DNA of 27,453 nt from a virus. Positions 9,778-27,202 of this stretch are shown one piece after another. The notes below the pieces were generated by a model that was given only the letters and a program-made list of their open reading frames with translations, was not told where the DNA came from and searched no databases. The stretch lies in the IMG/VR virus record IMGVR_UViG_3300046463_000235, positions 1 through 27,453 of that record, one strand, 5' to 3'. Position numbers and translations under genes: made by a program. Each line of letters opens with the position of its first letter. Positions within the stretch are counted from its first letter, which is position 1.

Positions 9778-9821
9778 GCCGGTTCAGGTCCGGCAACTTC
9801 CGTAGAGCGGTTGTCTCGCTC
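9778..9821 (+). other. Two hairpins in the coat-gene leader
   Basis: The region holds two perfect five-base-pair stem-loops, each with a seven-base loop: GCCGG-TTCAGGT-CCGGC (9778-9794) and GAGCG-GTTGTCT-CGCTC (9805-9821). Neither is followed by a T-run, so they are not typical terminators. They precede the coat gene by about 70 bases and may stabilise or process its mRNA. The first resembles a tRNA T-arm, but no tRNA can be built around it. Confidence 0.4.
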
Positions 9822-9893
9822 CCAACCTCCTGATTCGGAAACAGGAACGGCTCAAACAGCGTTTCTAATTCTCGAAGATAGGAGGAAATCCAC

Positions 9894-11111: not shown

Positions 11112-11161
11112 CAAATTAAGGCTCCCAATCGGGGCCGGAAAGTACATTTCAGAGGATAGCG

Positions 11162-11827: not shown

Positions 11828-11856
11828 CCAATTAGTTAATAGCTTTACAAACCCGA

Positions 11857-11882
11857 GGGGCAGCGGCTTGGTAGCCTGCCCC
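11857..11882 (+). terminator. GC-rich hairpin in the 11828-11941 gap
   Basis: GGGGCA (11857-11862) pairs with TGCCCC (11877-11882), with an inner GGCT/AGCC stem and a TGGT loop. A two-base GC bulge interrupts the left arm. It is followed by ACACAATA rather than a T-run, so intrinsic termination would be inefficient. Further small inverted repeats follow before the next gene. It could attenuate or process the transcript after the coat region. Confidence 0.4.
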
Positions 11883-11941
11883 ACACAATACCCCGGCGTT
11901 GTCGGGCATCCTTAGACTAGCTCCTAGCGAGGTTAGGACAC

Positions 11942-12922: not shown

Positions 12923-12931
12923 AGGGGACAG

Positions 12932-13123
12932 ATGGACGGTTTCCCGAAGTTCAAATATCACGTTCGCGGCGGCGGCCACATTGTCGTGACTACGCCCGAA
13001 CAAGAAAAGGCTCTTGGGCCGGAATGGGTCGATAACAAGGCCCCTCAGCTTAGTTTGTCACCCGTTCCGGTCACAGAGAAAAGGCGCGGAAGGCCAGCAG
13101 GAAAAGAAGCAGGGACTCCCTGA
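12932..13123 (+). CDS. 63-residue basic protein
   Basis: The ATG follows AAAGGGGACAG. The product opens with a short beta-like segment (FPKFKYHVRGGGHIVVTTPE) and ends in a disordered basic tail (TEKRRGRPAGKEAG) that contains an AT-hook-like GRP core. Equivalent small proteins often precede the head-tail connector genes in P22-like soil phages, but I know no function. Its stop is 6 bases from the end of the reverse-strand HNH gene. Confidence 0.65.
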   Translation: MDGFPKFKYHVRGGGHIVVTTPEQEKALGPEWVDNKAPQLSLSPVPVTEKRRGRPAGKEAGTP

Positions 13124-13128
13124 TGAGA

Positions 13129-13596
13129 TTAGAAGAATTTCCAGGTACGGTTAAGCTTGATATCGGAAACAATCACTTGAGTTATTCCGAATCGGGATGC
13201 TATTTCCCTTTGGGAGAGTCCTTGCTTCAGAAGTTCTCTTATTTCGTGCACCTTTGTTACCGTGAGCTTGCGAGGCTTTCTTCCTTTTTTCGCAGAATCA
13301 GTCATGTTGTCCTGATTCGTGCCGATGAACAAGTGGTTTGGATTGCAACACGGCGGATTGTCGCATCGGTGAAGGACAAAATAGGGGTAAGGATCAATGC
13401 CGCGAGTGATCAGCCAAACGATTCTAGTGGAAACAAATGCTTTTGCGCTACGAATCGTGACATTGCCATAGCCACTTCCGACTCTACTGCCATTCCAAGT
13501 CCAGCATTCATTGTCAGATTTTATGCTAACTTTGTTCCAAAATCTATTCCGCTCGCTATTGGTAAGACTATTAAAAGGCAATGGCTTAGCGTGCAT
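13129..13596 (-). CDS. HNH homing-type endonuclease
   Basis: This 155-residue reverse-strand product has the HNH_3-like core: ERNRFWNKVSI and CWTWNG at the start, then a central LHRCDNPPCCNPNHLFIGTN with His76, Asn86 and His88, and a following DNM-D-S-KKGR element. The C-terminus (about 111-148) is a helix-turn-helix (VHEIRELLKQGLSQREIASR) that probably sets target specificity. Such free-standing endonucleases spread by cutting DNA at uninterrupted sites in related phages. It is the only full-sized reverse-strand gene among the late genes. It abuts the gp4-like gene, whose start appears altered. No good ribosome-binding site precedes its ATG. Confidence 0.9.
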   Translation of the reverse strand: MHAKPLPFNSLTNSERNRFWNKVSIKSDNECWTWNGSRVGSGYGNVTIRSAKAFVSTRIVWLITRGIDPYPYFVLHRCDNPPCCNPNHLFIGTNQDNMTDSAKKGRKPRKLTVTKVHEIRELLKQGLSQREIASRFGITQVIVSDIKLNRTWKFF

Positions 13597-13607
13597 GGGA
13601 GGATTTT

Positions 13608-14357
13608 ATCACTGCGCTGGATTTAATTTCAAGCTCCATGCGTTTGATAGGTGCCCTCGCAAGCGGAGAAACGCCTACAGGTGCGGAGGCATCGGACTCA
13701 CTTACTGTCTTAAACGCCATGCTCGATAGCTGGGCAGCCGACCGTTTGATGGTCTTTACCGTCGCCATTGATGAATTTGCGCTCGTTCCGCTTCAGCAGA
13801 CCTACACGTATGGAGTTGGAGGGAATTTCAACGCGGCACGGCCTCCGAGGATCGACCGAATCAGCATCGTTTCGCTAACGAATCCGGCACAGCCTCTCGA
13901 ACTCCCGATTGACTACTATACGGGCCTCGACTGGCAGCAAGTTCCGGTGAAGAACATTCAAACCACGCTTCCACAGGCGGTTTATGACGATCAAGCGTTC
14001 CCGCTTCGGAATTTGAGCTTCTGGCCGATCCCGACAGTCGTGGTCAACACCAGAATCTATCGCTGGGCGCAGCTTACGAGCTATCCGAATCTTGTAACCG
14101 ACATCACCTACCCGCCTGGGTACATCGAAGCCTTGCGCTACAACCTGGCTGTGCGGCTCATGGCCGAGTTTCCGGGCGGCTTTGATCCAGTCATGTCGGC
14201 CACTACGGCCCCGCTGGCTGCGGAGTCGCTGGCGCGAGTGAAGAGCATGAACTTGCCGTTGATTGAAGCGTTCTGCGATGCGGCGCTGACAGCAAGAAAC
14301 GTCAGGTACAACTATTATTCCGACACTCCGGTAGGCGGGCAGGGAGCGAGGTGGTAA
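13608..14357 (+). CDS. Head-closure / tail accessory protein, P22 gp4-like
   Basis: The product resembles the P22_Tail-4 family, ring proteins that bind the portal after packaging and start tail assembly. Signature: LDLISSSMRLIGALASGETP followed by AEASDSLTVLNAMLDSW. The first ATG in frame is 13638, but that would remove ITALDLISSS, a stretch that the family normally has. A strong GGGAGG (13597-13602) lies five bases before ATC 13608, so either a rare ATC start is used or the original ATG was damaged at the HNH junction. The rest (YTYGVGGNFNAARPPRIDRI; YPPGYIEALRYNLAVRLMAE) is intact. It is longer (about 249 residues) than P22 gp4 (166). Confidence 0.85.
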   Translation: MTALDLISSSMRLIGALASGETPTGAEASDSLTVLNAMLDSWAADRLMVFTVAIDEFALVPLQQTYTYGVGGNFNAARPPRIDRISIVSLTNPAQPLELPIDYYTGLDWQQVPVKNIQTTLPQAVYDDQAFPLRNLSFWPIPTVVVNTRIYRWAQLTSYPNLVTDITYPPGYIEALRYNLAVRLMAEFPGGFDPVMSATTAPLAAESLARVKSMNLPLIEAFCDAALTARNVRYNYYSDTPVGGQGARW

Positions 14358-14360
14358 GCC

Positions 14361-16322
14361 TTGCAACCATTTGACCTCGTAGGGCCAAGCTATACCAGCC
14401 AATCTCCGAATCTCGCCGATCAGCTTACAATGAACTGGTATCCCGAGAGTTCGGAAGGCGAAGGCCAATCTCCGGCGGCGCTGTACCCGACTCCAGGCAC
14501 GGCGGTATTCTGCGACACCGGGAACACTCCGATTCGTGGTGAAATTACCGCAAATGACCGAACTTTTGTCGTGGCAGGCAGCCGATTCTTTGAAATCCTG
14601 TCGAACGGCACGAAGACTCAGTTCGGAACGGTCGTAAACGATAGCAAACCCGTCTCGATGGTAGCCGGAAGCTCGCAAATCCTCATAGCCAGTGCTGGCA
14701 ATGTTTACGTATTTGACTTTTCAACCGGGCTTTTGACTACTTCGACCATTAATGTCGGTGGGCAGAACGGTGTGGCTTCGAGTTCACTCGGATCGGGCGG
14801 CACCGGATATTCGGTCAACGATCAATTCACCATCAACGGTGGCAATTCCGACGCTGTGGGGATTGTCGATACGCTCTCCGGCAGCGCCGTGGCGACCTAC
14901 CACTTAACGAGCGTTGGGACAGCTTATGCGATCGCTACCGTGTCCACGACGAACAACACAGGCACAGGCTCGGGCCTGACCATCAACATTCTAACGGTCG
15001 GCGGAGGATACCAGATCAACGACACAGGCACGGTCAATGGCGGGTCGGTTCTCGCAACGTACATTGTGAATACTGTAGATGCGAACGGAAACGTCCTAAC
15101 CTACACGATTACAAGCCCCGGAAGCGGGTACATGATTACCACCGGCGAACCAACGGCGACCGGAGGCTCGCAACCTGGAATCGGAGACGGATTCACGATC
15201 AATGTCACCGGGACGGGAACAGCAAACACATTCATGGCGCTTCCGGCTGGCACGCTCCTCGGGTCTGTATCTTTTGTCGCATACGTCGAGGGCTTTTTCG
15301 TAGCACTCTTGTCCAGCTCCAATCAATTTCAATGGTCCGCGCCTCTCGATGCGACAAGCTGGGACCCGCTCGACACAAACCGAGTCTCTGTGTTTGCCGG
15401 AAATGTGCTTTCGATGTTCGCCGATCACAATGAATTGTGGTTTTGGGGTGAACGGCAGACCCAGCCCTACTTCCTCTCCGGCGGTCCTAACACATTTGAC
15501 ATTATTCAGGGCGGCTTCATGGAAGCAGGTATATTCGCGCCGAATAGCCCTGTACGCCTCGACAACTCGATCTTCTGGCTTGGAGGAGACGAACGCGGCG
15601 CTGGCGTGGTGTGGCGCGCGAACGGCTACACTCCGGCGAGAGTGTCGAACCATGCTATCGAGTTTGCGCTTCAAGGCTACTTGACTACATTCGGGGCGGT
15701 CGGACTTTCCGATGCGGTCGGCTATTCCTATCAGGATCAAGGGCATGGCTTCTATGTTCTGTACTTCCCGACAGCGAATGCCACCTGGGTCTATGACGTG
15801 GCAACCGGGATGTGGCATCAAAGGGGCTTCTGGAACGCGACTAACGGAGTATTTACCGCGCATCACAGCCAGAACCATACCTTCAACTTCGGGAAGCATC
15901 TGGTCGGAGACTGGTCGAGCGGCAAAGTCTACAATATGTCGATTTCTTTGTTCACGGATGGGGAAGATGTAATCCGGCGGGTGAGACGCACTCGGCACGC
16001 TTCCTCGGATCAGAGCTTCGTATTCTTCAAGACCTTGCAGATTTATGCCGAGACGGGCGTTGGGCCGATGCCTCCATTGCTTGACGGTGGCGGCAATCCA
16101 CGCGACCCGATGATTAATTTAAGGTGGAGCAATGATGGCGGCCATCAGTGGAGCAATGAATTATCTGCCGGGATTGGCCAAGCTGGAAACTACGGTCAAC
16201 GAGTAATGTTTAGGCGTTTAGGTCGAGGCCGCTCAAGAGTCTGGGAAGTGAGTGCTTCCGACCCGGTTCCTTATCGACTTGTCGGGGCTTATCTCGATGT
16301 GAGCGCCGGAGAGGGGGCTTAG
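14361..16322 (+). CDS. Packaged-DNA stabilisation / tail protein, P22 gp10-like, with inserted repeats
   Basis: The start (MQPFDLVGPSYTSQSPNLAD, then TMNWYPE) and the core (NQFQWSAPLDATSWDPLD; GNVLSMFADHNELWFWGERQ; QPYFLSGGPNTFDII; VYDVATGMWHQRGF) match the P22 gp10-like family. These are beta-propeller-like proteins that cap the gp4 ring and keep DNA in the head. P22 gp10 is about 472 residues; this one is 653. The extra length is mostly a Gly/Thr/Asn-rich insertion at about residues 131-288 containing two tandem copies of a ~70-residue unit. TTG 14361 is the start, with GAGGTGG about 6 bases upstream. The gene follows the gp4-like gene as in P22. Confidence 0.88.
   Translation: MQPFDLVGPSYTSQSPNLADQLTMNWYPESSEGEGQSPAALYPTPGTAVFCDTGNTPIRGEITANDRTFVVAGSRFFEILSNGTKTQFGTVVNDSKPVSMVAGSSQILIASAGNVYVFDFSTGLLTTSTINVGGQNGVASSSLGSGGTGYSVNDQFTINGGNSDAVGIVDTLSGSAVATYHLTSVGTAYAIATVSTTNNTGTGSGLTINILTVGGGYQINDTGTVNGGSVLATYIVNTVDANGNVLTYTITSPGSGYMITTGEPTATGGSQPGIGDGFTINVTGTGTANTFMALPAGTLLGSVSFVAYVEGFFVALLSSSNQFQWSAPLDATSWDPLDTNRVSVFAGNVLSMFADHNELWFWGERQTQPYFLSGGPNTFDIIQGGFMEAGIFAPNSPVRLDNSIFWLGGDERGAGVVWRANGYTPARVSNHAIEFALQGYLTTFGAVGLSDAVGYSYQDQGHGFYVLYFPTANATWVYDVATGMWHQRGFWNATNGVFTAHHSQNHTFNFGKHLVGDWSSGKVYNMSISLFTDGEDVIRRVRRTRHASSDQSFVFFKTLQIYAETGVGPMPPLLDGGGNPRDPMINLRWSNDGGHQWSNELSAGIGQAGNYGQRVMFRRLGRGRSRVWEVSASDPVPYRLVGAYLDVSAGEGA
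14793..15209 (+). repeat. Two tandem ~70-residue units inside the gp10-like gene
   Basis: Unit 1 (14793-14996) and unit 2 (14997-15209) share the pattern G-x-GY-x-[IV]-ND-x-x-T-[IV]-NGG. Both then have a TY-x-[IL]-TS motif (TYHLTSVGTAY; TYTITSPGSGY), an I-[AT]-T step and a closing TIN-[IV]. Their DNA is diverged, so the duplication is old. The units break the gp10 family core and probably form surface-exposed beta domains. Confidence 0.7.
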
Positions 16323-16561
16323 TGGCTATTTTCGATGCTCCTCCAGTTCGCACGGCCTTCCCGGATGCAAAGGCATGGCAGGGAACAGGCACTCCGGCAT
16401 GGGCCTGGGTGAAGTGGTTTCAGGCGATCACGGACAGATTCAACGCCCTTTTCGTGACTCCTCCGATTGTTACCGGATCGAGGGGCGGAAACGTGGCCTT
16501 GACAAATCTTTTACAATCTCTAGACAGGCAAGGTTACATCAAGGACAGCACAACGCCATGA
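16322..16561 (+). CDS. 79-residue tail-region protein
   Basis: A GTG at 16322 overlaps the gp10-like stop (TAGTG), a sign of translational coupling. The product is compact: APPVRTAFPDAKAWQGTGTP, then WVKWFQAITDRFNALFVTPP and LTNLLQSLDRQGYIKD. Small proteins with this Trp-rich middle often follow gp10-like genes in related phages, but their role is not known to me. No membrane helix or signal. Stop and next start overlap (ATGA). Confidence 0.7.
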   Translation: MAIFDAPPVRTAFPDAKAWQGTGTPAWAWVKWFQAITDRFNALFVTPPIVTGSRGGNVALTNLLQSLDRQGYIKDSTTP

Positions 16562-16701
16562 TCTGGTTTCATGAAAACAATCACGGAAAGCAGTTCGCTA
16601 TAAAGTTGGCATGGTTCGCCATTGCTTATGCTTATGACATTCAGATCGACAGATGCAGGTTTCTGTTCAGATTTGGGAAATGGCGCGTGAGTCTTCCATG
16701 A
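16558..16701 (+). CDS. 47-residue basic/aromatic small protein
   Basis: The ATG overlaps the previous stop and the TGA overlaps the next ATG, giving an exact fit. The product (MIWFHENNHGKQFAIKLAWF, then AIAYAYDIQIDRCRFLFRFG) is aromatic and basic, ending KWRVSLP. Similar short sequences with a WFHEN start and a DI-x-x-D-x-x-R-x-R-x-FRFG-x-W end accompany phage structural operons. Function unknown. Confidence 0.6.
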   Translation: MIWFHENNHGKQFAIKLAWFAIAYAYDIQIDRCRFLFRFGKWRVSLP

Positions 16702-17048
16702 TTACAGTCGAACGATTGCCGGACAACGAATACGACACGCTGATGAGCATTGAAGAGGGCTATGTCCCCGATCCGCAGGCTAGCATTGTGGTGGTCGCCA
16801 AATTCCAGGGCGACATCATCGGGCGCATGATGCTGATCGGAGTGAAACATATTGAAGCGGCTTGGATCAATGAACGATTCCGAAGCGGCACTCTTCTTGA
16901 ACGCCTGACGGCGGAAATGGAAAAGCACGCTCGGGCGGCGGGAATAAAAACTGTTTTCGTTTATTCGCAGACGAGTGAAATGGACGGTTACGTCGAACGC
17001 CTCGGCTATGAGCGGTCGCCTCTCCGGGTGTTCAGGAAGGACTTGTAA
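16698..17048 (+). CDS. GNAT-fold acetyltransferase-like protein
   Basis: The 116-residue product (ATG 16698, overlapping the previous stop) has a GNAT-like arrangement. MITVERLPDNEYDTLMSIEE is strand and helix one, IVVVAKFQGDIIGRMMLIG gives the central strands, and RSGTLLERLTAEMEKHARAA occupies the cofactor-helix position. IKTVFVYSQTSEMDGYVERL and GYERSPLRVFRKDL form the C-terminal part. GNAT enzymes transfer acetyl groups from acetyl-CoA to amines. The classical Q/RxxGxG/A loop is degenerate, so activity is doubtful. GNAT-like genes recur at this spot, between tail and ejection genes, in related phages. An in-frame ATG at 16653 is less likely because it overlaps the small gene upstream. Confidence 0.7.
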   Translation: MITVERLPDNEYDTLMSIEEGYVPDPQASIVVVAKFQGDIIGRMMLIGVKHIEAAWINERFRSGTLLERLTAEMEKHARAAGIKTVFVYSQTSEMDGYVERLGYERSPLRVFRKDL

Positions 17049-17836
17049 TGCCAATCGCGGCAGTTATCGGCGGTGTCAGTTCCCTTGTTGGGGACGTAAT
17101 TGGAGCGCATTCCGCAAGCAAGGCAGCCGCAGCACAGGCAGCAGCCGCAGCGCAGGCGCAACAGCTTGAACAGCAGAACGCGAATCAGGCACTTGGTCTT
17201 CAGCGTGGAGCGCAGGGCCAATCGCAGGCCAATCTTAGCCCTTACGTGCAATCCGGGCAGATGGCTCTTGGTCGATTGGGTGCCATGCAGGCGTTCAGCG
17301 CACCGACAGCCCAACAGGCTGCCGAGACGCCTGGTTATCAGTTCCAGCTTACACAGGGACTCAAAGCCTTGCAGAACTCAGCAGCAGCTCGGGGAGGACT
17401 TCTCTCCGGCGGCACGTCGAAAGCAATCAACGATTACGCTCAGGGGCAGGCTGCATCGAACTACGGGAACACTTACAACCGGGCATTGCAGACCTACCAG
17501 ACGAATTTCGGGAATCAATACTCGCTTGCCGGACAGGGACTCGGAGCAGCTACGAATCTCAGCAGCCTCGGGCAACAGAACGCTAATGCAAGCTCGGGAG
17601 TGCTCGAAAACTCAGCTAATGCACAGGCGCAGGCTCTTGAGAATGCAGGCGCAGCGCGAGCAAGCGGCTATGCAGCGCAGGGAAACATTCTTGGTGGAGC
17701 AGTCTCAGGATTCGGGAACGCCATCGGAAATCAGATACAGCTCTCGCAAATGGGGAAATCGCAATTCCCGGCTGGGTATAACCCTGGCGGCGGGCCAGCA
17801 CAGTTATACGGGAACGATGTAACCGGGATTCGGTAA
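17048..17836 (+). CDS. DNA transfer / ejection protein (first internal virion protein)
   Basis: The start overlaps the previous stop (TAATG). The N-terminus is a hydrophobic Gly/Val stretch (MPIAAVIGGVSSLVGDVIGA) followed by Ala/Gln-rich helix (SKAAAAQAAAAAQAQQLEQQ). The middle has ARGGLLSGGTSKAINDYAQG and YGNTYNRALQTYQTNFGNQY, the pattern of small internal proteins that databases often name DNA transfer protein p32. In podoviruses such proteins are packed in the head and ejected to help DNA cross the cell envelope. It is followed by two more large Gln/Ala-rich proteins, the usual set of three. The exact role is inferred. Confidence 0.75.
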   Translation: MPIAAVIGGVSSLVGDVIGAHSASKAAAAQAAAAAQAQQLEQQNANQALGLQRGAQGQSQANLSPYVQSGQMALGRLGAMQAFSAPTAQQAAETPGYQFQLTQGLKALQNSAAARGGLLSGGTSKAINDYAQGQAASNYGNTYNRALQTYQTNFGNQYSLAGQGLGAATNLSSLGQQNANASSGVLENSANAQAQALENAGAARASGYAAQGNILGGAVSGFGNAIGNQIQLSQMGKSQFPAGYNPGGGPAQLYGNDVTGIR

Positions 17837-17849
17837 AACGGAGGATAAG

Positions 17850-19346
17850 TTGGGCAGCATTCCGCTCGTAGCACTTGCAGTCAGACCGCAGCCCTACCAA
17901 GACCCGATTGCGAATCAGCAACGGTTGATGAGTCTTCGTGCGCTCGGGCAATCGACTGAACAGCAGGCGGCGCTTGCTCCGGGTGTGCAACAACTTCAAC
18001 AGCAAGCTATTCAGACTGGACAAGTGGATATTGAAAAGCAAAAACGCGCATTAGCGGATCAAGACGCCTTGACAAAAGCCATGCAGCAATGGGATGGCAA
18101 AGATTATACGCAAATACCAGCACTCGTAATGAAGAACGGTGGTTCTTTTAATGCAATCTCCTCGGCCACTCAGAATATTATCTCCCAAAGGGAAAAGGCT
18201 GCGGAAACGGCCAAAAATGCGGCTCAGGCGCAAAGCGACGAAACCAACGCTGAAATAAAGAAGAATGACGAATACCGAGGACGTTTGCAGGACATCATCT
18301 CGGCCCCGACAGATCAGAAGCAGACTCTCTGGGATCAGGAAGTAACAAAAGAAGAGCAGGCCGGAACGATTCAGCCGGGGCAGATGTCGCACACTTATCC
18401 AGGAGATGCCGAAGCAACCTCTCTGGCGAATCACTTTGCGTTGGCTTCTCAGCTTCACAAGGAAGCGAAGGACGCGCAGGAGACAGCGAACCAAGAGCAG
18501 GAAAGAAAGCAAGCCGTAGCGAATGCAGCCGAGACAGCCAGACATAATCGGGCAATGGAAGGCATTCAAAGCGGTGGGGCTGCCGGTGCATTGACTGACG
18601 AAGCCACGGACCAAGCAGCCCAACGGTATTCAACATCGGGGCAGCTCCCGCCAACGGGACGCGGAGCTGCTGGACTCGCTCAGACGCGCAAGATCATCAA
18701 TCGTTCGGCGGAACTGAATCCAGGTCAAGTGCTCGCGGCGAACTCGGCGGAATTCAAGGCGAATCAGCAATCGCTGTCAAAGATTCAATCGAACTTCGAT
18801 CAGGTTACGGCTTTCGAGAACACAGCCGGAAAGAACCTCGACATTTTCCTGAACACAGCAAAGAAGCTGGATGATTCCGGCAGCCCGTGGGTCAATAAGC
18901 CGTGGCGCGACGTACAATCCGGTCTTGCCGGGAATCCAGACCTCGCAGCCTACAACACGGCTCGCACTACGGCCCTGACGGAAATCGCAAAAGTGCTAAA
19001 CAGTTCAAACGCCTCGGGCGTGCTCTCAGATTCAGCGCGCGCTGAAGTCAGCGGCCTAATCGGACCTAATTCTTCACTGAAACAAGTGGAATCTGCCGCG
19101 AACATTCTCAAGCAAGACATGGCGAATCGGCATCAGGCTTACCAGCAGCAGATCGGCGACATTCAAAAGAGGCTAGGGGGAGCGCAAGGAGGTGGTCAAA
19201 CGCAGTCCGGCGCTCCTTCCGCTTTGCCTCAAGGTGGCGGGAAAGTCATCGACAAGGCCACGGCACAGCAGTTTTATCAGCAAGCCGGAAACGATCCAGA
19301 CAAGGCTCGACAACTCGCAATTCAGAATGGATGGAAACTGCAATAA
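17850..19346 (+). CDS. Ejection-type internal virion protein, 498 residues
   Basis: TTG 17850 is fixed by GGAGG nine bases upstream. The product is Gln/Ala-rich and almost entirely helical. Coiled-coil segments (QAALAPGVQQLQQQAIQTGQ; EKAAETAKNAAQAQSDETNA; EAKDAQETANQEQERKQAVA) are followed by a more ordered helical part (about 290-440: SFNAISSATQNII lies earlier, and AGKNLDIFLNTAKKLDDSGS, ARAEVSGLIGPNSSLKQVES come later). The C-terminus has DKATAQQFYQQAGNDPDKAR. This resembles P22 gp20/gp16-type and T7 core-type ejection proteins in size, composition and position. Direct family matching is not possible by eye. Confidence 0.72.
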   Translation: MGSIPLVALAVRPQPYQDPIANQQRLMSLRALGQSTEQQAALAPGVQQLQQQAIQTGQVDIEKQKRALADQDALTKAMQQWDGKDYTQIPALVMKNGGSFNAISSATQNIISQREKAAETAKNAAQAQSDETNAEIKKNDEYRGRLQDIISAPTDQKQTLWDQEVTKEEQAGTIQPGQMSHTYPGDAEATSLANHFALASQLHKEAKDAQETANQEQERKQAVANAAETARHNRAMEGIQSGGAAGALTDEATDQAAQRYSTSGQLPPTGRGAAGLAQTRKIINRSAELNPGQVLAANSAEFKANQQSLSKIQSNFDQVTAFENTAGKNLDIFLNTAKKLDDSGSPWVNKPWRDVQSGLAGNPDLAAYNTARTTALTEIAKVLNSSNASGVLSDSARAEVSGLIGPNSSLKQVESAANILKQDMANRHQAYQQQIGDIQKRLGGAQGGGQTQSGAPSALPQGGGKVIDKATAQQFYQQAGNDPDKARQLAIQNGWKLQ

Positions 19347-20867
19347 ATGGCCGACGATATATTCAGCCAAGTGCATCAAGAGGCTCAGGCGCAGCAAGCG
19401 TCTCAGAATGACGTGTTTTCACAGATACACACCGAGGCTCAACCGCCGTCTGCGTCTATGCTCGATAAACTGTCCAGCGGCATCACATCGGCATGGAAAG
19501 CAATGCCAGTCGGCATGATTAGCGAGATGAATCAACACATTGGAGACTGGGCCAATCAAAAGGCCGAGCAAAACAGGCAGGAGAATCTAGCGGCAGTCGC
19601 CAAGGGCCAGCCCCAACCGCACAGCGAAGTCACGAATACAGCCCTCGGGATGCTCGGAAGTGCTGGGAAAATGGGCACTGTCACTCCGACACAGGGCGCT
19701 ATTGCTGGAGCTGCCGTGCTTGCCCCGGAAGTTGTCGGTCCTGCTCTCGTAGCGCATGGCGGCTATACGGCAATCAAGAATGCGCCCGCAGCGATTCAAG
19801 GGAATCCAGATGCGGCAGAAGCCTCGTTGACTGGCGCAGCCGAAGCAGCGGGCGGCGGTGCGATGACAGGAGAGGCGCTTGCTGGTGGCCTGAAGAATAC
19901 CAATATAGGAAAAGTTGTTCAAAAAGCGAATCCTGGCGAACTTGTGCGCGACATTACCGGCACCACACCGGAAAGAATCGCTGAACTTCAGCAGGTTCCT
20001 CAGAAAATATCTGACATTCGCCAGTTGGCGGTGGACGCAGAAGCAAAAGCAAAAGCAGCAGCTAAAGCTGCCTACCCAGACATCAAGACGCCAGTGAAAA
20101 TTGGGCCTCCAGTTTCCGAGGCAGAGCCATTCGATCCGACCGCCACTGTAGATGCGAAACAAACTGAAATTCCTTTCAAGCAAGCCCAGGAAAAGTACAG
20201 CCAGCTTGGGATCGACGCACGCGCAGCGCATATTGCGCGAATGCGAGGGCTTATCACGGGATTCGATGAGGCAGACATTCTGAGACAGAAGTCTGAACTT
20301 GGCGATGCCATGCAGGATGCGGCAGAGGCAGACGGAAAGCTCGATGACTACAACGCAGCGCAAAAACAGTTTCGCCAGTACATGACCGACTTCCATAATA
20401 GAGGGTCGGCTGTGGAACCGCTTCTGGAAGCAAACCCGAGCGATACGGTTAAAATTGCAAATCACTTCCTCAACCCAGATAAGGGAGCGCGGACTGTCAG
20501 CACGCTATCGAAATACGGGATCGACACTTCGCCCATAAATGATCTGCTCTCACGCGGCGCAACACCCCTAAAGATCGACGTAACTGAGGCAACAAAACTT
20601 GCAAAGGTAGGGCCGGAGAGTTACGCGCAGCAAAGATTACAGGAAAGCATTGACCAGGCGGAATTTAATCGCCTGCAATCCAGCGCACAAGCGCGACTGC
20701 CGGCATGGGCCATGCGGAAAACATCGGAACTTCCGCTTGTGCCGGAAGCCTTGCAACCTAACATCCCGACGCGGTTCTTGATATCGAAACTACTGAGGTC
20801 GAACTTCGCAAAAAGTGCCGTCGGAGAGGGAGCAATTCAGTTGCGGAACTTAGGGGCAAAACCGTGA
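19347..20867 (+). CDS. Ejection-type internal virion protein, 506 residues
   Basis: The ATG directly follows the previous stop. The N-terminus contains a 17-residue duplication (DDIFSQVHQEAQ / NDVFSQIHTEAQ). A hydrophobic segment GAIAGAAVLAPEVVGPALVA (about 113-132) could insert in a membrane, which fits an envelope-penetrating ejection protein. The rest is helical and charged (ADILRQKSELGDAMQDAAEA). The C-terminal part includes LPAWAMRKTSELPLVPEALQ. As the third large internal-type protein in a row, it completes an ejection set. No lytic transglycosylase motif is seen. Its 3' end overlaps a convergent reverse-strand gene by 31 bases. Confidence 0.72.
   Translation: MADDIFSQVHQEAQAQQASQNDVFSQIHTEAQPPSASMLDKLSSGITSAWKAMPVGMISEMNQHIGDWANQKAEQNRQENLAAVAKGQPQPHSEVTNTALGMLGSAGKMGTVTPTQGAIAGAAVLAPEVVGPALVAHGGYTAIKNAPAAIQGNPDAAEASLTGAAEAAGGGAMTGEALAGGLKNTNIGKVVQKANPGELVRDITGTTPERIAELQQVPQKISDIRQLAVDAEAKAKAAAKAAYPDIKTPVKIGPPVSEAEPFDPTATVDAKQTEIPFKQAQEKYSQLGIDARAAHIARMRGLITGFDEADILRQKSELGDAMQDAAEADGKLDDYNAAQKQFRQYMTDFHNRGSAVEPLLEANPSDTVKIANHFLNPDKGARTVSTLSKYGIDTSPINDLLSRGATPLKIDVTEATKLAKVGPESYAQQRLQESIDQAEFNRLQSSAQARLPAWAMRKTSELPLVPEALQPNIPTRFLISKLLRSNFAKSAVGEGAIQLRNLGAKP
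19353..19457 (+). repeat. Duplicated 17-residue N-terminal motif
   Basis: Residues 3-19 and 21-37 of the 506-residue internal protein share the pattern [DN]-D-[IV]-FSQ-[VI]-H-x-EAQ followed by a polar stretch ending in AS. The DNA copies (19353-19403 and 19407-19457) differ at many synonymous and some coding positions. Short repeated D-[IV]-F-x-x-[VI] motifs can act as docking or processing signals, but none is established here. Confidence 0.6.
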
Positions 20868-20986
20868 CGAATTCCGTAGAGATGGTCGATCATTTTGGCG
20901 AATGAATAGAGCGCCAGTGACAAGCATCCGGCACCTACAAGGAAAATGAACCATATGGAAGCAATCAAAAACGCGAGATGGAACAT
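20837..20986 (-). CDS. 49-residue single-pass membrane protein
   Basis: The ATG at 20986 overlaps the stop of the upstream reverse-strand gene (TAATG), with GGGG-TGAAG ahead of it. The product has one long hydrophobic helix (FHLAFLIASIWFIFLVGAGC, then LSLALYSF) and a basic, aromatic C-terminus (MIDHLYGIRHGFAPKFRN). Its 3' end runs 31 bases into the end of the forward ejection gene. In late-gene context a small membrane protein could be a lysis factor or an anti-superinfection protein, but no family is recognised. The plus-strand frame in this interval looks non-coding. Confidence 0.5.
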   Translation of the reverse strand: MFHLAFLIASIWFIFLVGAGCLSLALYSFAKMIDHLYGIRHGFAPKFRN

Positions 20987-21105
20987 TACTTCACCCCTTT
21001 CGGCGCTCGGAAAGCGTGTTCTCGATACGCGTCTCGGGCTTTCTTGGCTTCTCGGACGATCTCGGCGTCGGTTATCGGCAGCGGGTACATCGGATTCATG
21101 TTCAT
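20986..21105 (-). CDS. 39-residue helical protein
   Basis: An ATG at 21105 opens a frame that ends by overlapping the membrane-protein start. The product begins MNMNPMYPLPITDAEIV and continues as an amphipathic, charged helix (REAKKARDAYREHAFRAPKG). There is no clear ribosome-binding site. A promoter-like pair of hexamers ends only about 8 bases before the ATG, so the mRNA may be nearly leaderless. Other in-frame ATGs (21099, 21090) are possible starts. Function unknown. Confidence 0.48.
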   Translation of the reverse strand: MNMNPMYPLPITDAEIVREAKKARDAYREHAFRAPKGVK

Positions 21106-21113
21106 ATGAGCCA

Positions 21114-21142
21114 AGTGTACATAGCCGGATATTCGGTGTAAA
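21114..21142 (-). promoter_or_regulatory. Candidate promoter of the reverse micro-operon
   Basis: On the reverse strand TTTACA (21142-21137) and TACACT (21119-21114) are separated by exactly 17 bases, matching five and four positions of the sigma-70 hexamers. Transcription would start near 21107, about two bases before the ATG of the 39-residue gene. It would therefore drive the two-gene unit at 20837-21105 against the direction of the late operon. Confidence 0.4.
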
Positions 21143-21158
21143 GGGTACTTTAGTACCC
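21143..21158. promoter_or_regulatory. Inverted repeat GGGTACT-TT-AGTACCC
   Basis: A perfect seven-base inverted repeat with a two-base centre lies directly next to the candidate reverse promoter -35 and only three bases before the GTG of the forward tail-fibre gene. As DNA it could be a regulator binding site for both directions. As forward mRNA it would fold the start region and hide the AAGGG that might serve as ribosome-binding site. Confidence 0.5.
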
Positions 21159-21161
21159 ATT

Positions 21162-22226
21162 GTGGCACTGATTCTACTAGCTTTACCTGCTTTCGGGCAG
21201 GTTCCGGTGAACGTGGGACCTGAACCAAAAACCCAGTTTCTCGACAATTCCGGCGTGCCACTGGCCTTCGGGATTGTTTGCACCTACCAAGCCGGGACTA
21301 GCACTCCATTTGCGACGTACACTGACTCGACCGGATCGGTAATGAACGCAAATCCGACGGTATTGGACGCCGGGGGCCGAGCTAACATCTGGTGGCAGAG
21401 TCCTGCTTATAAGGTGGTCCTTGCGGGCGGAGGAACGTGCGGCAGCCCAAGCAATTTGATTTGGACCGTCGATAATTTTCAGATCGGCGTGTTCTTGAAC
21501 GGGAACAATACCTGGACTGGGACGAATACGTTCAGCGGCAACGTAGTGGTCAACGGAACCTTCACGGCAAACTCGGGAGGAAGCCTCAACGGAACTTTTT
21601 CCGGCAACCCGAACTTTTCGGGAAGTCCTACGTTCTCGGGAACCATCGTCGCCAGTCAATTTCAATCGACCGTCGCAACCGGCACGCCACCCCTGATCGT
21701 CGCCAGCACGACCGAAGTAGCGAACCTGAACGTGGCCGCACTCGATGGATGCGTAACAACTGGTACGCCATCAGCAGGTGGATGGACAACAGCGAGTCAG
21801 CTTCCAGGGATTGTGTATAGCACGCCATCCTCTTCGGTGAATGCGAGCATCGGCACAGTGACAATGATTACAGTCGGCGGTAGCGATGCTACCTACCGCT
21901 TTTCCTTCTATCCGGCTGAAACAGTAGTCGGGGCCAGTTGTGCCGGAAGCACCGACATTCAGATGGTGCTTACCTTCCAAGATCCGAACGCAGTCGGAGC
22001 GAGCACCATATCAGCCCCGGCTAATTTTCATATTGCCAGCCTCGGCAATGGGACTGTCGGCCCGGCTTTCAGCTATGGTTTCGGTGCTCTTACCTTCACA
22101 CCGCCATTCAGGGCGAAGACGGGGACGGCGATTCAGTATGCAGTTACGTTCACTGCCGGAGGAAGCTGTTCTCCCGCACCGAAGTACCAAATTTTCCCGA
22201 TCTTGGAGCAGTTGACAAGTATGTAG
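21162..22226 (+). CDS. Tail-fibre-like protein with N-terminal signal-like segment
   Basis: The frame is open from 20946, but residues upstream of 21162 look non-coding and lie over the reverse-strand genes, so GTG 21162 is the first credible usual start. A rare start further upstream (ATA 21132) would give a better signal peptide with a Lys. ALILLALPAFG then Q resembles a Sec signal cut before Gln. Next is a phage fibre N-terminal domain (FLDNSGVPLAFGIVCTYQAG; TPFATYTDSTG; NPTVLDAGGRANIWW; IWTVDNFQ) known from tail fibres of podoviruses. A Gly/Asn/Thr repeat region (TFSGN, NFSGS, TFSGT) leads to a C-terminal domain shared with the 865-residue protein. Probably a receptor-binding fibre. Confidence 0.8.
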   Translation: MALILLALPAFGQVPVNVGPEPKTQFLDNSGVPLAFGIVCTYQAGTSTPFATYTDSTGSVMNANPTVLDAGGRANIWWQSPAYKVVLAGGGTCGSPSNLIWTVDNFQIGVFLNGNNTWTGTNTFSGNVVVNGTFTANSGGSLNGTFSGNPNFSGSPTFSGTIVASQFQSTVATGTPPLIVASTTEVANLNVAALDGCVTTGTPSAGGWTTASQLPGIVYSTPSSSVNASIGTVTMITVGGSDATYRFSFYPAETVVGASCAGSTDIQMVLTFQDPNAVGASTISAPANFHIASLGNGTVGPAFSYGFGALTFTPPFRAKTGTAIQYAVTFTAGGSCSPAPKYQIFPILEQLTSM

Positions 22227-22245
22227 GTCTCTATGAAAATGACCT

Positions 22246-22902
22246 ATGCTCATCTATCGTGTTATCAACAAATCCAATGGGAAAATTTACATTGGTAAAA
22301 CGCAGTCAAACAACCATCTGCTTCGGTGGAAGCAGCATATTCAACAGGCCAAAGCTGGGAGTCAATTATATTTTCACAGAGCCATCAGAAAATACGGACC
22401 AAATAACTTTGAGATTTCCATTATGAAAAGAGCCAATAATTCACTAGTGCTTGAGCGTTTGGAGCGACAATTTATAAGACTGAATCGCTCCGATGAACAT
22501 GAAATTGGCTACAATATGACGAAGGGCGGCATTGGTTTTTTTGGGAGCCATTCAATCGCCACGCGCAAGAAAATGAGCAAATCTAGGAGAGGCAATAAGT
22601 ATGCCTTGGGTGTTCGGCATTCAAGACAGGCCCGCATCAATATGGGCAAAAGTCATATCGGTAGTCATCGTTCTATGGCAACCCGGCGCAAAATAGCGCG
22701 AGCACTCATTGGTAATAAAAATCCTTTGGGAACAGTCCGCTCTAAGGCTTTTTGTCGGGCAATTAGTGCCAGATTCATTGGCAATAACTATGGGACCGGA
22801 AAACGCTCAAAGGAATTTTGTAGGCAAGTTAGCCTACGAAATATGGGCAATCGCTATAAGACTGTCTGGAAAGAACGGCTTATGAAAGGAGTTCTCACTT
22901 GA
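22246..22902 (+). CDS. GIY-YIG homing endonuclease with NUMOD3-like repeats
   Basis: The N-terminal GIY-YIG nuclease has LIYRV, the IYIGKT loop (14-19), Arg27 and His31. The catalytic Glu is near 73 (RLERQFI), and GYN lies at 88-90. The C-terminal half holds several basic NUMOD3-type DNA-binding repeats (TRKKMSKSRRGNK; SHIGSHRSMATRRKIARAL; IGNKNPLG; FIGNNYGTGKRS). Such free-standing enzymes are selfish elements copied into recipient phages by repair of the cut they make. It sits between two tail genes, is AT-richer than its neighbours, and overlaps the TTG start of the next gene (TTGA). The catalytic residues appear intact. Confidence 0.92.
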   Translation: MLIYRVINKSNGKIYIGKTQSNNHLLRWKQHIQQAKAGSQLYFHRAIRKYGPNNFEISIMKRANNSLVLERLERQFIRLNRSDEHEIGYNMTKGGIGFFGSHSIATRKKMSKSRRGNKYALGVRHSRQARINMGKSHIGSHRSMATRRKIARALIGNKNPLGTVRSKAFCRAISARFIGNNYGTGKRSKEFCRQVSLRNMGNRYKTVWKERLMKGVLT

Positions 22903-25496
22903 AGAAATTTCTCATTCTCGGATTCGCGCTTTTGATGCTTTCGGCCAGACTTCCGGCTCAGAATCGCGTTACAGCAACACTTTCGGCGGCAGCTTCGGAT
23001 TGCGCTACTACGAACGTATGCCTCGCACTTCCGATTACCACTTCAGTCGGCGGGGCGACATTCACGGTAAGCGCCAATGCATCGAGCAATACGCTGCAAT
23101 TCGAGGCTACAGCCAATGGCGGCACGACTTGGGTTGCATTAAATGTCACGCCATCGAACAGCACAACCGCCGCCAGTTCGACCACATCGACCGGCACATG
23201 GCAGGCAAATGTGGCTGGATACACATCCGTACGCATTCGCATGTCCACGCTTGTCAGCGGCACTTCGACTGTAACGCTTTCCACTTCCACCGCTTCCGCT
23301 CGGGCCGGGGGCGGCGGCGGTGGGTCGGGCACGATTGGCGGCACCATCGCAGCAACGCAAGTTGCCTTCGGATCGGCAGCCAATACGATTGCTGGCGATC
23401 CGAACTTGACGTGGGATAACACCGCGAAAGAATTGGGTGTTGGCTGCGACCCGAATACGGAAACCGATGGGTGCGTGCTTATCGGTCTTCTTGGAACGGT
23501 TACAGGCACACCTCAAGGGGACGAGTTTGCTTTGCAGGCGAATGCAGACATCACCGTAAACTCGCCTAATACCACCGCCACGGAGTTCGCTGGAAACTTT
23601 TCCGGCGTAGCTGCTCATGGAAGTGGAATTTTCGCAAGTGCTCTGTTAGGGGTTGCCGGTGGAAATACTTATGATGGAACAGGGACCGTTGCAGAAATGG
23701 ACGCTATTGTCGCTGTCGCGCCATCAAATACCGGAGGCGGAACGATTAACGTCAATCACGGCGTGAACGGCGGCGACCAGCACGGCGTCGGCTCGACACT
23801 CAACGCAGCCTATTTTGCTCCGAATCAAGGCACCGGAGCGAATGATTATGCTATCTATCTCTTAGGCGGAAAGGTCCACAACGGGGACTATGCGGCATCC
23901 TCGAATGTATGCACGGATTCTGGCAGCAACCTAACGACATCTTTATGCGCCACCGCTGGGCAGACAAACCTAATCGACATAACGCAAGCGCCTTACAACG
24001 CCGTAGGGGATGCGGTCCTAATTCCAAACGTGAGTACCACCAGCGGCCTGCCTGATGTGACCTGCGGAGCCTGTACGTTCACGGCTGGGATGGTTGGCAA
24101 GGCGATTCAGATTTATAACACGAATAATGGAAACATCCTGCACTACACCACAGTCGCCACCTTTGTCAGCTCAACTCATATAACAAGCACAATCAATGCA
24201 AGCATCACTTCGACGACAGGGCGAGCAATCATTGGCACGGAGAATCAAACCGCGATTTCCAGCGCAATCACCGCAGCCATTGCGTCAACGGTCCCGGTAA
24301 CCGTATACGCCCCCCCCGGTAATTATATGTGCAGCGGCCAGTGCGTGGCCATCACTGGAACAAATCCCATTGAATTCAGAGGAGCGGGCCTCAAGGTTAC
24401 GAACTTTTTTCATAACTACTTTGGGCTTGGGAATAATAATTTCTTCACATCTTCAAACGGAAACACCTACTGGCATGATTTCAGCGTTGGATTCGACAAG
24501 GCGGGTACGAACTCGATCCCGGCCAGCGGCTCAACAACCGACTTGATGAACCTTTACGGCACGCGAATCAGCAAAGTCGGAGTGTATAACTGGTCTGCGG
24601 TCAACAATTATTGCATGGTTTCAAACACGGATGCGGCTCGGATAGACTTCCCCATCATACAGAATTGCTTGAATGGCTTGAACCTGCTCTGGAAAAATAT
24701 TACGGTCACTGATCCTTATATCACCGTGACGAGCGGCAAAGGCATTCGCTTTTTTGATTTCACCGCAAACGTCACCGGCGGCTCGATAGGCTGTGGTTCT
24801 ACCGGGGGAACTGCGATTTCGGCAGAAGTTCAGGGAACGCCAGCCAATTACTCAATCATGGGAACAACGCTTACGGCTCCCGGTTGCACCGCCTTCACCT
24901 CAACCGCAGCAGCATCCGTCACAACGCTTCAGGGCGTGATTATCACGGCTGCGACTGGAAATTCTACTGGCATAAATATCGGCTCCACGTCCAAGGTCAT
25001 CGCGTCGGGAACCTATATTCAGTCATCCGGGACAGGCAATGGAATAAACAATTCCGGCACATACGAAGACCTTGGCGGGAATGTCTTTGCGGCTACTGGC
25101 GCGGCCAATTACACCGGGGCCGGAACCTACCTTAAAACTCCTGAAGCCGTGGGATCGGATGTTCAGCTTGCAAAGGCGGCAGCACAAACAGCCAAAACCT
25201 TGTTTACGGTAGGAACAGTCACAGCCTTCTTCCGTGTCCACATTTCCGTGGAATGCACCACGACATCGGCCTCGGCAACCGTGACGCCCGCAGTTCTGTA
25301 TACCGATACATCGAACACCGCACAGACGGTAACGGGTACGGCTGCGACGTGTACTGCTCTCGGTGCGGCAAGCAATACAAGTCAAGACGTAACTTTTCGG
25401 GCTTTGACTGCCACAACGATTCAATATCAAACTACGATTGTAAACACGCCGACGTATGACATCAGCGTGACAGTCGAGCAATTAGGGATTACTTAA
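22899..25496 (+). CDS. Large secreted-type tail/adhesin protein with beta-helix region
   Basis: TTG 22899 is preceded by AAAGGAG. The N-terminus is a classical Sec signal (MKKFLILGFALLMLSARLPA, cut near Gln21). Then come a Thr/Ser-rich beta domain (to about 135), a poly-Gly linker (GGGGGGSG) and a repeat-rich middle. A pectate-lyase-like beta-helix (about 400-750; ITAAIASTVPVTVYAPPGNY, IEFRGAGLKVTNFF) and a C-terminal domain shared with the 21162 gene complete it. There are 16 cysteines, mostly in close pairs (VTCGAC, MCSGQC), fitting disulfides outside the cytoplasm. At 865 residues it may be a receptor-binding or polysaccharide-degrading spike. A signal peptide on such a protein is unusual. 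Confidence 0.78.
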   Translation: MKKFLILGFALLMLSARLPAQNRVTATLSAAASDCATTNVCLALPITTSVGGATFTVSANASSNTLQFEATANGGTTWVALNVTPSNSTTAASSTTSTGTWQANVAGYTSVRIRMSTLVSGTSTVTLSTSTASARAGGGGGGSGTIGGTIAATQVAFGSAANTIAGDPNLTWDNTAKELGVGCDPNTETDGCVLIGLLGTVTGTPQGDEFALQANADITVNSPNTTATEFAGNFSGVAAHGSGIFASALLGVAGGNTYDGTGTVAEMDAIVAVAPSNTGGGTINVNHGVNGGDQHGVGSTLNAAYFAPNQGTGANDYAIYLLGGKVHNGDYAASSNVCTDSGSNLTTSLCATAGQTNLIDITQAPYNAVGDAVLIPNVSTTSGLPDVTCGACTFTAGMVGKAIQIYNTNNGNILHYTTVATFVSSTHITSTINASITSTTGRAIIGTENQTAISSAITAAIASTVPVTVYAPPGNYMCSGQCVAITGTNPIEFRGAGLKVTNFFHNYFGLGNNNFFTSSNGNTYWHDFSVGFDKAGTNSIPASGSTTDLMNLYGTRISKVGVYNWSAVNNYCMVSNTDAARIDFPIIQNCLNGLNLLWKNITVTDPYITVTSGKGIRFFDFTANVTGGSIGCGSTGGTAISAEVQGTPANYSIMGTTLTAPGCTAFTSTAAASVTTLQGVIITAATGNSTGINIGSTSKVIASGTYIQSSGTGNGINNSGTYEDLGGNVFAATGAANYTGAGTYLKTPEAVGSDVQLAKAAAQTAKTLFTVGTVTAFFRVHISVECTTTSASATVTPAVLYTDTSNTAQTVTGTAATCTALGAASNTSQDVTFRALTATTIQYQTTIVNTPTYDISVTVEQLGIT

Positions 25497-25497
25497 T

Positions 25498-26208
25498 ATG
25501 AAGCGCAATCTACAACTCGCTGCCTTCCTGATGACCGGCGTGCTCATCGGAAACCTTCTCGGCGGATTTGTTCACGCGCAGACCTATCTTAGTGCAGTCG
25601 AAGTCCCTCGGGGAACGATCTTACTGATGACAACTGCCTGTCCCTCTGGTTATACAGAAGTTACGGCTCTGAATGGAGCAATGCCACTTGGCACGATAGC
25701 CGCGAACGGAGATGTCGGCACAACTGGGGGAACGAACACAATCACGCCGACAGTGGCAAGCCTCACAGCGGCGGCACAGACGGTCAGCTATCCGGTGAAT
25801 GTCCCAACTATAGCTGCTGGAAGTTTCACACAACCTACAATCTCTTGGCCGGTCGGAGTGCCTACAAACGGAGCGATTGCGATTGGTACTTTTGTCAATG
25901 TAGCGACGACTACAAGCGGAAACTCGGCAGCGACAAACATTGCTGCTGGTACCGGCTCGTTGACGGCAGCAAAGGCCACGGCTCCCAATTTGACCGTGCC
26001 TGCTGAAGGGCATAGCGGTTCTCTCACTCCCCCTACAATCTCATGGCCTGCTGGCGTGCCTACGAACGCAAGTGGAGCATTTAGTGAGGGAGCAATCTCA
26101 TGGCCCGCGAATCCACCCACAAACGGGACTTCTAGCGTTACGGGCACTCTCAGCAGCTTCGACAACCGTTCGGCATGGGTGAAGGTGATCTTTTGCCAAA
26201 AAGCATGA
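25498..26208 (+). CDS. Tail-collar-like protein with Sec signal and ISWP repeats
   Basis: The ATG follows the previous stop by one base. The signal peptide is MKRNLQLAAFLMTGVLIGNL then LGGFVHA, with likely cleavage before Gln28. The mature part begins like a phage tail-collar domain (VPRGTILLMTTACPSGYTEV, GAMPLGT) and ends with its usual closing motif (SFDNRSAWVKVIFCQKA). In between are Thr/Ala-rich beta repeats, three of them built on ISWP-x-x-[VP]-PTN. The only two cysteines (48 and 233) lie near opposite ends and could form a disulfide. Collar-domain proteins are receptor-binding tips of phage tails. An export signal on one is unexpected. Confidence 0.78.
   Translation: MKRNLQLAAFLMTGVLIGNLLGGFVHAQTYLSAVEVPRGTILLMTTACPSGYTEVTALNGAMPLGTIAANGDVGTTGGTNTITPTVASLTAAAQTVSYPVNVPTIAAGSFTQPTISWPVGVPTNGAIAIGTFVNVATTTSGNSAATNIAAGTGSLTAAKATAPNLTVPAEGHSGSLTPPTISWPAGVPTNASGAFSEGAISWPANPPTNGTSSVTGTLSSFDNRSAWVKVIFCQKA
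25822..26124 (+). repeat. Three ISWP-x-x-[VP]-PTN repeats
   Basis: Copies at 25822-25869, 26017-26067 and 26074-26124 encode GSFTQPTISWPVGVPTN, GSLTPPTISWPAGVPTN and GAFSEGAISWPANPPTN. The second and third are almost adjacent, separated by only two residues. The repeats suggest a repeating beta-turn structure or an exposed binding loop. Confidence 0.75.
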
Positions 26209-26540
26209 ATCCCTGGTCGAGGTTACAGTGGGTGAACAAAAGAATCGGAAATCTGCATAAAGAGATTATTGCCCGTGAGCGAGAACGAACCAAACTGCGG
26301 GAGATCATGGCTGCCGAGCTTCGAGGCTGGCCGGATTACAAGGTGACGCGACGGGAAAGTGAAGTCTTGACCATGCTGGCCGGAAATCCGTTGCTGACGA
26401 ATAAGGAAATTGCGAACAACCTTTTCATCACCGAAAGAACGGTCAAGTTTCATATGAGTTCACTGCTCAAGAAATTCGATGCCACGGATCGGGGCCAATT
26501 GATGCAGATTTCAAGGGAACAACAGGGAGCAATCCAATGA
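26205..26540 (+). CDS. LuxR/GerE-type helix-turn-helix regulator
   Basis: The ATG overlaps the previous stop (ATGA). The C-terminal half is a standard LuxR-type DNA-binding domain: VTRRESEVLTMLAGN, LTNKEIANNLFITERTVKFH with the recognition helix at about 76-91, and MSSLLKKFDATDRGQL. The first ~40 residues form a charged coiled-coil-like helix (NKRIGNLHKEIIARERERTK) rather than a receiver or ligand domain. It is 111 residues long. This suggests a constitutive or oligomerisation-dependent transcription factor. Its position among exported tail proteins is odd. It may control late phage genes or reprogram host genes. The next gene start overlaps its stop. Confidence 0.85.
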   Translation: MNPWSRLQWVNKRIGNLHKEIIARERERTKLREIMAAELRGWPDYKVTRRESEVLTMLAGNPLLTNKEIANNLFITERTVKFHMSSLLKKFDATDRGQLMQISREQQGAIQ

Positions 26541-27202
26541 AACGGATTCTAGCACTCGCAATTCTCGCGCTTGTCGCATCTTCGGCGATGGCTTCGATTG
26601 GGCCGACGCTCCGAATCACTGCCGATCCGCAGACCGGAACGCATCAAGGCCAACTATCCTGGGTCGCGCCTGTCACTACGGGCGTTGTCTATACCGGATT
26701 CAATGTCTATCGGGCAACTTGCACCGGGACTGTAACAGCGGGAGTATGCAGCACCGATTCGACAGCCACGTTTGCGAAGATTACCGCAACCGCGCTTCCC
26801 GCTACGGCCTTGAGCTATACCGATACGCCACTTACGGCGGCAACGAGTTACATCTGGTACGTCACTTCCCTGTGCGCGACTTGCACGACAACGGAAAGCA
26901 TTCCCTCGAATCATGTGGCCGGGACAACCACAGCGAATCAGCCGCCACCGCCAGTGCTCTCTATCACTTCGGTTGCCATGAATGTCACCGGGAACACTGA
27001 AACCGTGACGGCGCAATGGACTGATACATCGGGGACCCAGCAAGCCTTTAAGTTCTCAAATGGCACGTCCTTCGTGGCGCAAGGACTTACTTCTGATCCG
27101 AGCGGGAACTTCGCACAGCGATGGACCGGGCCAGCGGGAACACCGATTATTTTCATGGTTTCCAACGCAGCGGGAATCTCCGCTAGTCAGGCGGCGAAGT
27201 GA
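26537..27202 (+). CDS. Secreted fibronectin-type-III-like protein
   Basis: The ATG overlaps the regulator's stop. A clear Sec signal (MKRILALAILALVASSAMA, cut before Ser20) precedes a fibronectin III-like domain (QGQLSWVAPVTTGVVYTGFN, VYRATCTG, SYTDTPLTAATSYIWYVTS). The proline linker NQPPPP comes next, then a second beta domain (about 141-221). Four cysteines form two close pairs (CTGTVTAGVC and CATC), consistent with disulfides after export. FnIII domains in phages usually lie on tail proteins and may bind host carbohydrate. Here it is a small stand-alone exported protein. Function unknown. Confidence 0.75.
   Translation: MKRILALAILALVASSAMASIGPTLRITADPQTGTHQGQLSWVAPVTTGVVYTGFNVYRATCTGTVTAGVCSTDSTATFAKITATALPATALSYTDTPLTAATSYIWYVTSLCATCTTTESIPSNHVAGTTTANQPPPPVLSITSVAMNVTGNTETVTAQWTDTSGTQQAFKFSNGTSFVAQGLTSDPSGNFAQRWTGPAGTPIIFMVSNAAGISASQAAK

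Follow-up and report, generated by a model that had tools for sequence, protein, structure and literature searches.

The window analysed here, the whole 27,453-base IMG/VR record IMGVR_UViG_3300046463_000235, is a fragment of a P22-type podovirus, and its tail-fibre region encodes proteins that appear to be made for export by the host Sec system. The terminase gene is followed by genes for the portal (phrog_156), scaffold (phrog_8865), coat (phrog_283), head closure (phrog_578) and DNA-ejection (phrog_598) proteins in P22-type order. Downstream of the ejection protein lie two proteins without cysteine, and then the fibre region. Taking the host from its relatives, we infer that the window derives from a P22-type podovirus of Acidobacteriota. 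The features of the fibre region are as follows.

21162..22226, plus strand: gp426, a fibre or spike protein with a head-binding domain (phrog_26190); shortest likely open reading frame (ORF), with an alternative ORF from 20946
21129..21197, plus strand: cryptic signal-peptide-like segment of gp426, IFGVKGTLVPIVALILLALPAFG, without a canonical start codon in a suitable place
21198..21491, plus strand: mature N-terminal domain of gp426, a P22-type tailspike head-binding domain by profile, single-sequence and structure matches
21279..21281, plus strand: Cys28 of the mature gp426 N-domain, first of a gained pair (homologue alignment)
21438..21440, plus strand: Cys81 of the same domain, second of the gained pair (homologue alignment)
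22899..25496, plus strand: gp865, 865 residues, TTG start, tailspike-like, with a conserved N-module, a variable middle, a conserved C-module and 16 cysteines
22899..22958, plus strand: predicted gp865 signal peptide, MKKFLILGFALLMLSARLPA, cut before Q; rule-based test, conserved in L014 and L027
23001..23021, plus strand: cysteine pair of the gp865 N-domain, C35 and C41 (DCATTNVC; alignment A5)
25119..25493, plus strand: C-terminal module of gp865 (residues 741-865) with its own cysteine pair, 68-85% identical to L001/L008, L009, L010 and L011
25498..26208, plus strand: gp236, 236 residues, collar-like by motif only, with C48 and C233
25498..25578, plus strand: predicted gp236 signal peptide, MKRNLQLAAFLMTGVLIGNLLGGFVHA, cut before Q; rule-based test and homologues
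26537..27202, plus strand: gp221, 221 residues, a fibre-region protein with four cysteines
26537..26593, plus strand: predicted gp221 signal peptide, MKRILALAILALVASSAMA, cut before S; the homologue in L001/L008 has MKRFLLCVPLFLMCAASPIRA, cut before Q

Signals for Sec and signal peptidase I were called by a rule that looks for a positive n-region, a hydrophobic h-region and an A-X-A-like site. It was satisfied by the genes at 22899, 25498 and 26537 (gp865, gp236 and gp221) and by none of the 26 other listed genes; no packaging, head or ejection gene of the window has a signal peptide by this test. Among 109 out-of-frame ORFs, the rule was positive in 4 at the first start and in 16 when any start was allowed. 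No lipobox was seen in the three signals. For gp865, the best site by the rule lay four residues earlier, after LSA, and the site between PA and Q was picked from homologues. Homologues on independent contigs retain the signals while their sequences drift. Over the 22 codons of the gp865 signal, 9 synonymous and 3 other changes separate the window from L014, and one of the latter is the start itself (TTG vs. ATG); the character of this signal is kept in L001-L005, L007, L012 and L015. For the 29 codons of the gp236 signal, comparison with L008 shows 12 synonymous changes and 3 nonsynonymous ones. Because the protein is conserved while the DNA drifts, the signal-peptide regions are probably real, and this pattern supports the view that they are more than chance. 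The original prediction that these three genes begin with cleavable-looking Sec signals was thus confirmed, and its cysteine counts of 16 in gp865, 2 in gp236 and 4 in gp221 were correct.

The cysteines of these proteins occur in conserved pairs, judged on conservation only. The N-domain pair of gp865 is kept in nearly all homologues sharing that domain, and C48 and C233 of gp236 are invariant among 11 homologues. The C-terminal module of gp865 is swapped among otherwise different proteins. Searches of Pfam and PHROGs returned no match for gp865, gp236 or gp221, tblastn against INPHARED with gp865 and gp236 gave none, and the related-locus search with gp221 gave no relatives. Few of the large signal-bearing genes of relatives are named by Pfam. 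Two labels given earlier to these proteins were not borne out: gp221 had been called an FnIII protein, and there is no PF00041 match in the record; gp236 had been called collar-like, and no Pfam collar match occurs in its 11 members. Foldseek gave weak tailspike matches for gp865, which are hints only because the model is of low confidence (mean predicted local distance difference test, pLDDT, 49). The same model matched the prophage proteins YomS (nearly the whole chain, TM 0.78) and XepA (the PBSX "exported protein"); a possible shared fold of the gp865 N-domain was noted and not used as evidence. In L004 (5636-13034) there are four consecutive signal-bearing genes, two of them with the gp865 N-module in common, and fibre modules there seem to have been shuffled behind a shared exported N-terminus.

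The clearest link to virions is provided by gp426. Its N-domain matched PDB 7eeq, the "Tailspike head-binding domain" of Pam1, with profile E-values of 4e-14 (A1) and 1.2e-7 (A2) and also as a single sequence, and it matched the N-terminal module of tailspikes and fibres in phages of the public record. When the predicted domain was compared by Foldseek, the first 13 rows were tail structures of P22, Sf6, Pam1 and Pan3. Mature residues 1-96 are therefore the head-binding domain of a tailspike, that is, the virion-docking module of such spikes; the body of gp426, where a P22-type tailspike would have its receptor-binding beta-helix, was predicted at low confidence. The domain evolves under purifying selection (ratio of nonsynonymous to synonymous substitution rates about 0.1), which argues for continued docking. 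The original prediction had given the gene at 21162 a weaker signal. This held in part: a good signal-like segment (IFGVKGTLVPIVALILLALPAFG, cut before Q) is present, and conventional signals stand at the same position in the homologues L014, L007, L030, L031 and L124, but the GTG at 21162 leaves no n-region, and translation of the segment as a good signal would have to begin at the ATA at 21129 or, with a very long n-region, at 20946.

The homologues of this domain were considered more widely. In 11 phages of the public record, and in almost every one of some 80 additional IMG/VR copies, the domain begins at the initiator Met or beside it. Met lies beside the domain start in 92 of 94 copies lacking a signal. 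In the acidobacterial clade with signals, which includes L124 and has gained the cysteine pair, the predicted cut places the mature start 1-3 residues from the start of the signal-less proteins. Because the signal-less domain starts almost exactly at the predicted cut, the signal resembles a cassette placed in front of it rather than a segment used in assembly. Homologues without signals had been named beforehand as a possible refutation. Such homologues do exist in other phages, and the idea of export is not refuted by them, since their domain starts near the predicted cut. The cysteine pair occurs in 8 of 10 signal-bearing copies and in 1 of 94 signal-less ones, the sole case being L027, which has the same cryptic signal as the window; the Fisher value for this association ignores descent and so overstates the evidence. 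In the tree, the signal-bearing copies form one clade (support 96/91) and a second pair, L126/L127, and only two signal changes are needed. L129 was dropped from the comparison as unrelated. In L119 (5189-7595), the unit of signal peptide and head-binding domain is present three times in tandem, with the first two copies shortened, which looks like duplication of a fibre cassette.

The same arrangement was found in three near-complete relatives, G414, G402 and G408; for these and the other IMG/VR relatives, gene starts were assigned with a simple script. Each fibre or spike gene that could be recognised in the three has a signal (in the gp426-type gene of G408, from an internal TTG start), their head genes have none, and their ejection proteins lack cysteine; G402 has one additional signal-bearing gene between head closure and ejection. 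Thus no other candidate for receptor binding is visible in these genomes. As for the host, L124 is an integrated P22-like prophage with a signal-bearing fibre on a 1.16-Mb scaffold of Acidicapsa dinghuensis (Acidobacteriota), and signal-bearing versions occur in two more Acidobacteriota genomes. An oxidising periplasm is plausible in the Acidicapsa host, because its genome has VKOR and DsbA-like thioredoxin families. In L124 the gene directly after the coat gene (3750-4781; phrog_1101 tail protein) also has a signal peptide.

An independent case came from cultured phages of Acidobacteriota (PMC11924767), described in a paper whose main text is silent on signal peptides and mass spectrometry. 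The genes were tested from the authors' own starts. In the fibre block of Tunturi_2, a plaque-isolated podovirus, four genes passed the rule (9802, 13371, 15362 and 18453); a fifth, 18902 (MKKLILILPLIAASFAGA, cut before Q), failed it, probably owing to a proline, and is signal-like by eye. These five signal-bearing genes, a count that leaves out the small gene 18115 among them, span 9802-22744 and encode 2-34 cysteines each, 10-34 in the four large ones. The head genes of Tunturi_2 have no such signals; the rule was also positive for the small genes 22771 and 32591 and the lipoprotein-like 39222. Tunturi_1 and Tunturi_2 are, like the likely source of the window, podoviruses of Acidobacteriota. 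The Tunturi_2 fibres were not recognisable homologues of the window's fibres in profile searches, so Tunturi_2 is an independent parallel and not a family member. A general demand of acidobacterial hosts for such signals is ruled out by Tunturi_3, a podovirus isolated on the same strain (X5P2), and by the siphovirus Tunturi_4, whose tail genes lack signals. Since Tunturi_3 has no signal-bearing fibres on that strain, the signals appear to be a trait of some podovirus lineages and not a host necessity.

Judged from sequence, export of the fibre-region proteins is well supported, and we infer that signal cleavage, disulfide formation and docking follow it. Sequence conservation gives good support to the original prediction that these proteins are exported and probably form disulfides outside the cytoplasm. 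Of its three options, the best fit is docking on virions at lysis or later, and pure superinfection decoys and secreted adhesins fit less well. On balance, we consider it somewhat more probable than its converse that the fibres and spikes are exported, oxidised outside the cytoplasm and docked on virions at or after lysis. On this reading, the products of these genes, the tail fibres and spikes that bind the receptor, would be made as precursors with Sec signal peptides, exported through SecYEG and cut by signal peptidase I; in gp426-type proteins, this cut would regenerate the N-terminus of signal-less head-binding domains. The disulfides would be closed by the periplasmic oxidation system of the host, while spike-less particles would be assembled in the cytoplasm. 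Lysis would then break the membrane, and ready-made spikes would dock via the head-binding domain. Spikes already outside the cytoplasm before lysis may also remove or hide glycans on the cell surface, which would limit readsorption. P22 tailspike can be added to finished particles in vitro, which makes the final docking step chemically reasonable. Docking is favoured because gp426 keeps its head-binding domain under purifying selection and because the near-complete relatives have no recognisable signal-less fibre or spike gene; if the exported proteins never reached the virion, G414, G402 and G408 would have no visible receptor-binding protein. The wider proposal, an assembly in two compartments in which a tailed-phage lineage shifted its receptor-binding proteins to Sec and lysis unites spike-less particles with exported spikes, has about an even chance of being right.

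Several observations weigh against this reading. For a tailed phage, spikes that reach the virion from outside the cytoplasm would be a novelty, and their access to it at lysis is assumed. The signals were called by a rule-based predictor and not by SignalP, and the gp426 signal has no canonical start either in the window or in L027. The gp426 domain model comes from a prediction of the whole protein whose confidence is low (mean pLDDT 61), with values of 78-90 over most of the N-domain. The association of signal and cysteine pair rests on few independent events, and in L126/L127 the signal is present and the pair is absent from this domain, which weakens a strict coupling of the two. Finally, Tunturi_3 infects the same strain as Tunturi_2 with fibres that have no signals and few cysteines.

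Decoys, secreted enzymes and uncleaved anchors are possible readings, and none of them accounts for all of three features: the retention of the head-binding domain, the absence of further fibre genes and the exact junction. The strongest of them, which we regard as unlikely, is that the exported proteins act on the surface of the producing cell before lysis, destroying or masking receptors to block superinfection or to prevent readsorption to debris, so that no virion role is needed. The signals, with the export before lysis that they imply, and the tailspike-like architecture agree with this, and fibres that target glycans typically have variable middles flanked by conserved end modules. Yet purifying selection maintains the domain by which gp426-type proteins bind the virion head, and neither the near-complete relatives nor Tunturi_2 have another full-length fibre gene for adsorption. 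Less probable still are secreted exopolysaccharide hydrolases or adhesins that alter the biofilm of a lysogen. WceF of Pantoea stewartii, a trimeric beta-helix exported by Tat and with a tailspike fold (PMC7949094), may have such a role, and L124 is an integrated prophage. However, Tunturi_2 has such clusters too and no integrase is named in its isolation paper (PMC11924767), the genes stand in the late structural block adjoining the ejection genes, and a head-binding domain would be useless to such enzymes. Slightly weaker again, and improbable, is the view that the hydrophobic N-termini stay uncleaved in the virion and act on membranes or in assembly, for example by helping the particle dock on the membrane during DNA ejection. 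The gp426 of the window, without a clear start, would suit it; but the n-, h- and c-regions of a Sec signal are all conserved across unrelated proteins, the residue at -1 being small and that at +1 often Q, the predicted cleavage restores the N-terminus of signal-less homologues, and the gain of cysteines fits an oxidising compartment. An artefact of wrong starts and composition mimicking signals on ordinary fibre proteins, although the rule is positive in some null ORFs, is very improbable, since the feature recurs in author-annotated Tunturi_2 genes, in a prophage of a named genome and on many IMG/VR contigs, and the signals are conserved at the codon level.

Among the closest known systems, the tailspikes of P22 (gp9), Sf6 (gp14), Pam1 and Pan3 resemble gp426 in the head-binding domain, by sequence and fold, and the window has P22-type portal, coat, head-closure and ejection genes; the homologues examined in other phages start at this domain without a signal, whereas the gp426 homologues described here have a Sec signal and a gained cysteine pair. 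P22 spikes are made in the cytoplasm. Filamentous phages do have virion proteins with Sec signals (pIII and pVIII), but these phages are extruded through the envelope, whereas the window belongs to a tailed phage with P22-type head genes. WceF is likewise exported and tailspike-like (PMC7949094), but is a bacterial enzyme with a Tat signal from an exopolysaccharide cluster and no part of a phage virion. Endolysins with signal peptides or signal-arrest-release (SAR) sequences, such as Lys44 of fOg44, are placed outside the cytoplasm by host Sec before lysis (reviewed in PMC6116005); a tailed phage thus uses Sec for a late protein, though for lysis enzymes and not virion parts. In the open-access literature searched, we found no earlier report of exported tail fibres or spikes and no virion proteomics.

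Other genes lie in and around this region. A free-standing GIY-YIG/NUMOD3 homing endonuclease gene (22246-22902) separates gp426 from gp865 and looks like an insertion, because the same junction measures about 16 bases in L027 and is overlapping in L014. A LuxR-type helix-turn-helix gene (26175-26540) overlaps the end of gp236 within the fibre cluster, and the right end of the window truncates an ORF (27199) whose product has a weak Big_2-like match. Between gp506 and gp426, two small minus-strand ORFs (20839-21111), PITDAEIVREAKKARDAYREHAFRAPKGVK and then a small hydrophobic protein, MFHLAFLIASIWFIFLVGAGC, lie on the strand opposite the structural genes. L027 retains the first of them, followed there by a small hydrophobic ORF of another kind. 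A perfect palindrome, GGGTAC-TTTA-GTACCC (21143-21158), between these genes and gp426 is a candidate operator.

In the textbook view, the assembly of tailed phages is wholly cytoplasmic. The question is directly testable, as plaque-forming phages with (Tunturi_2) and without (Tunturi_3) exported fibres were isolated on the same host strain. If the export and later docking of spikes proposed here is true, the order of assembly, the control of superinfection and disulfide-stabilised spikes would all need rethinking.

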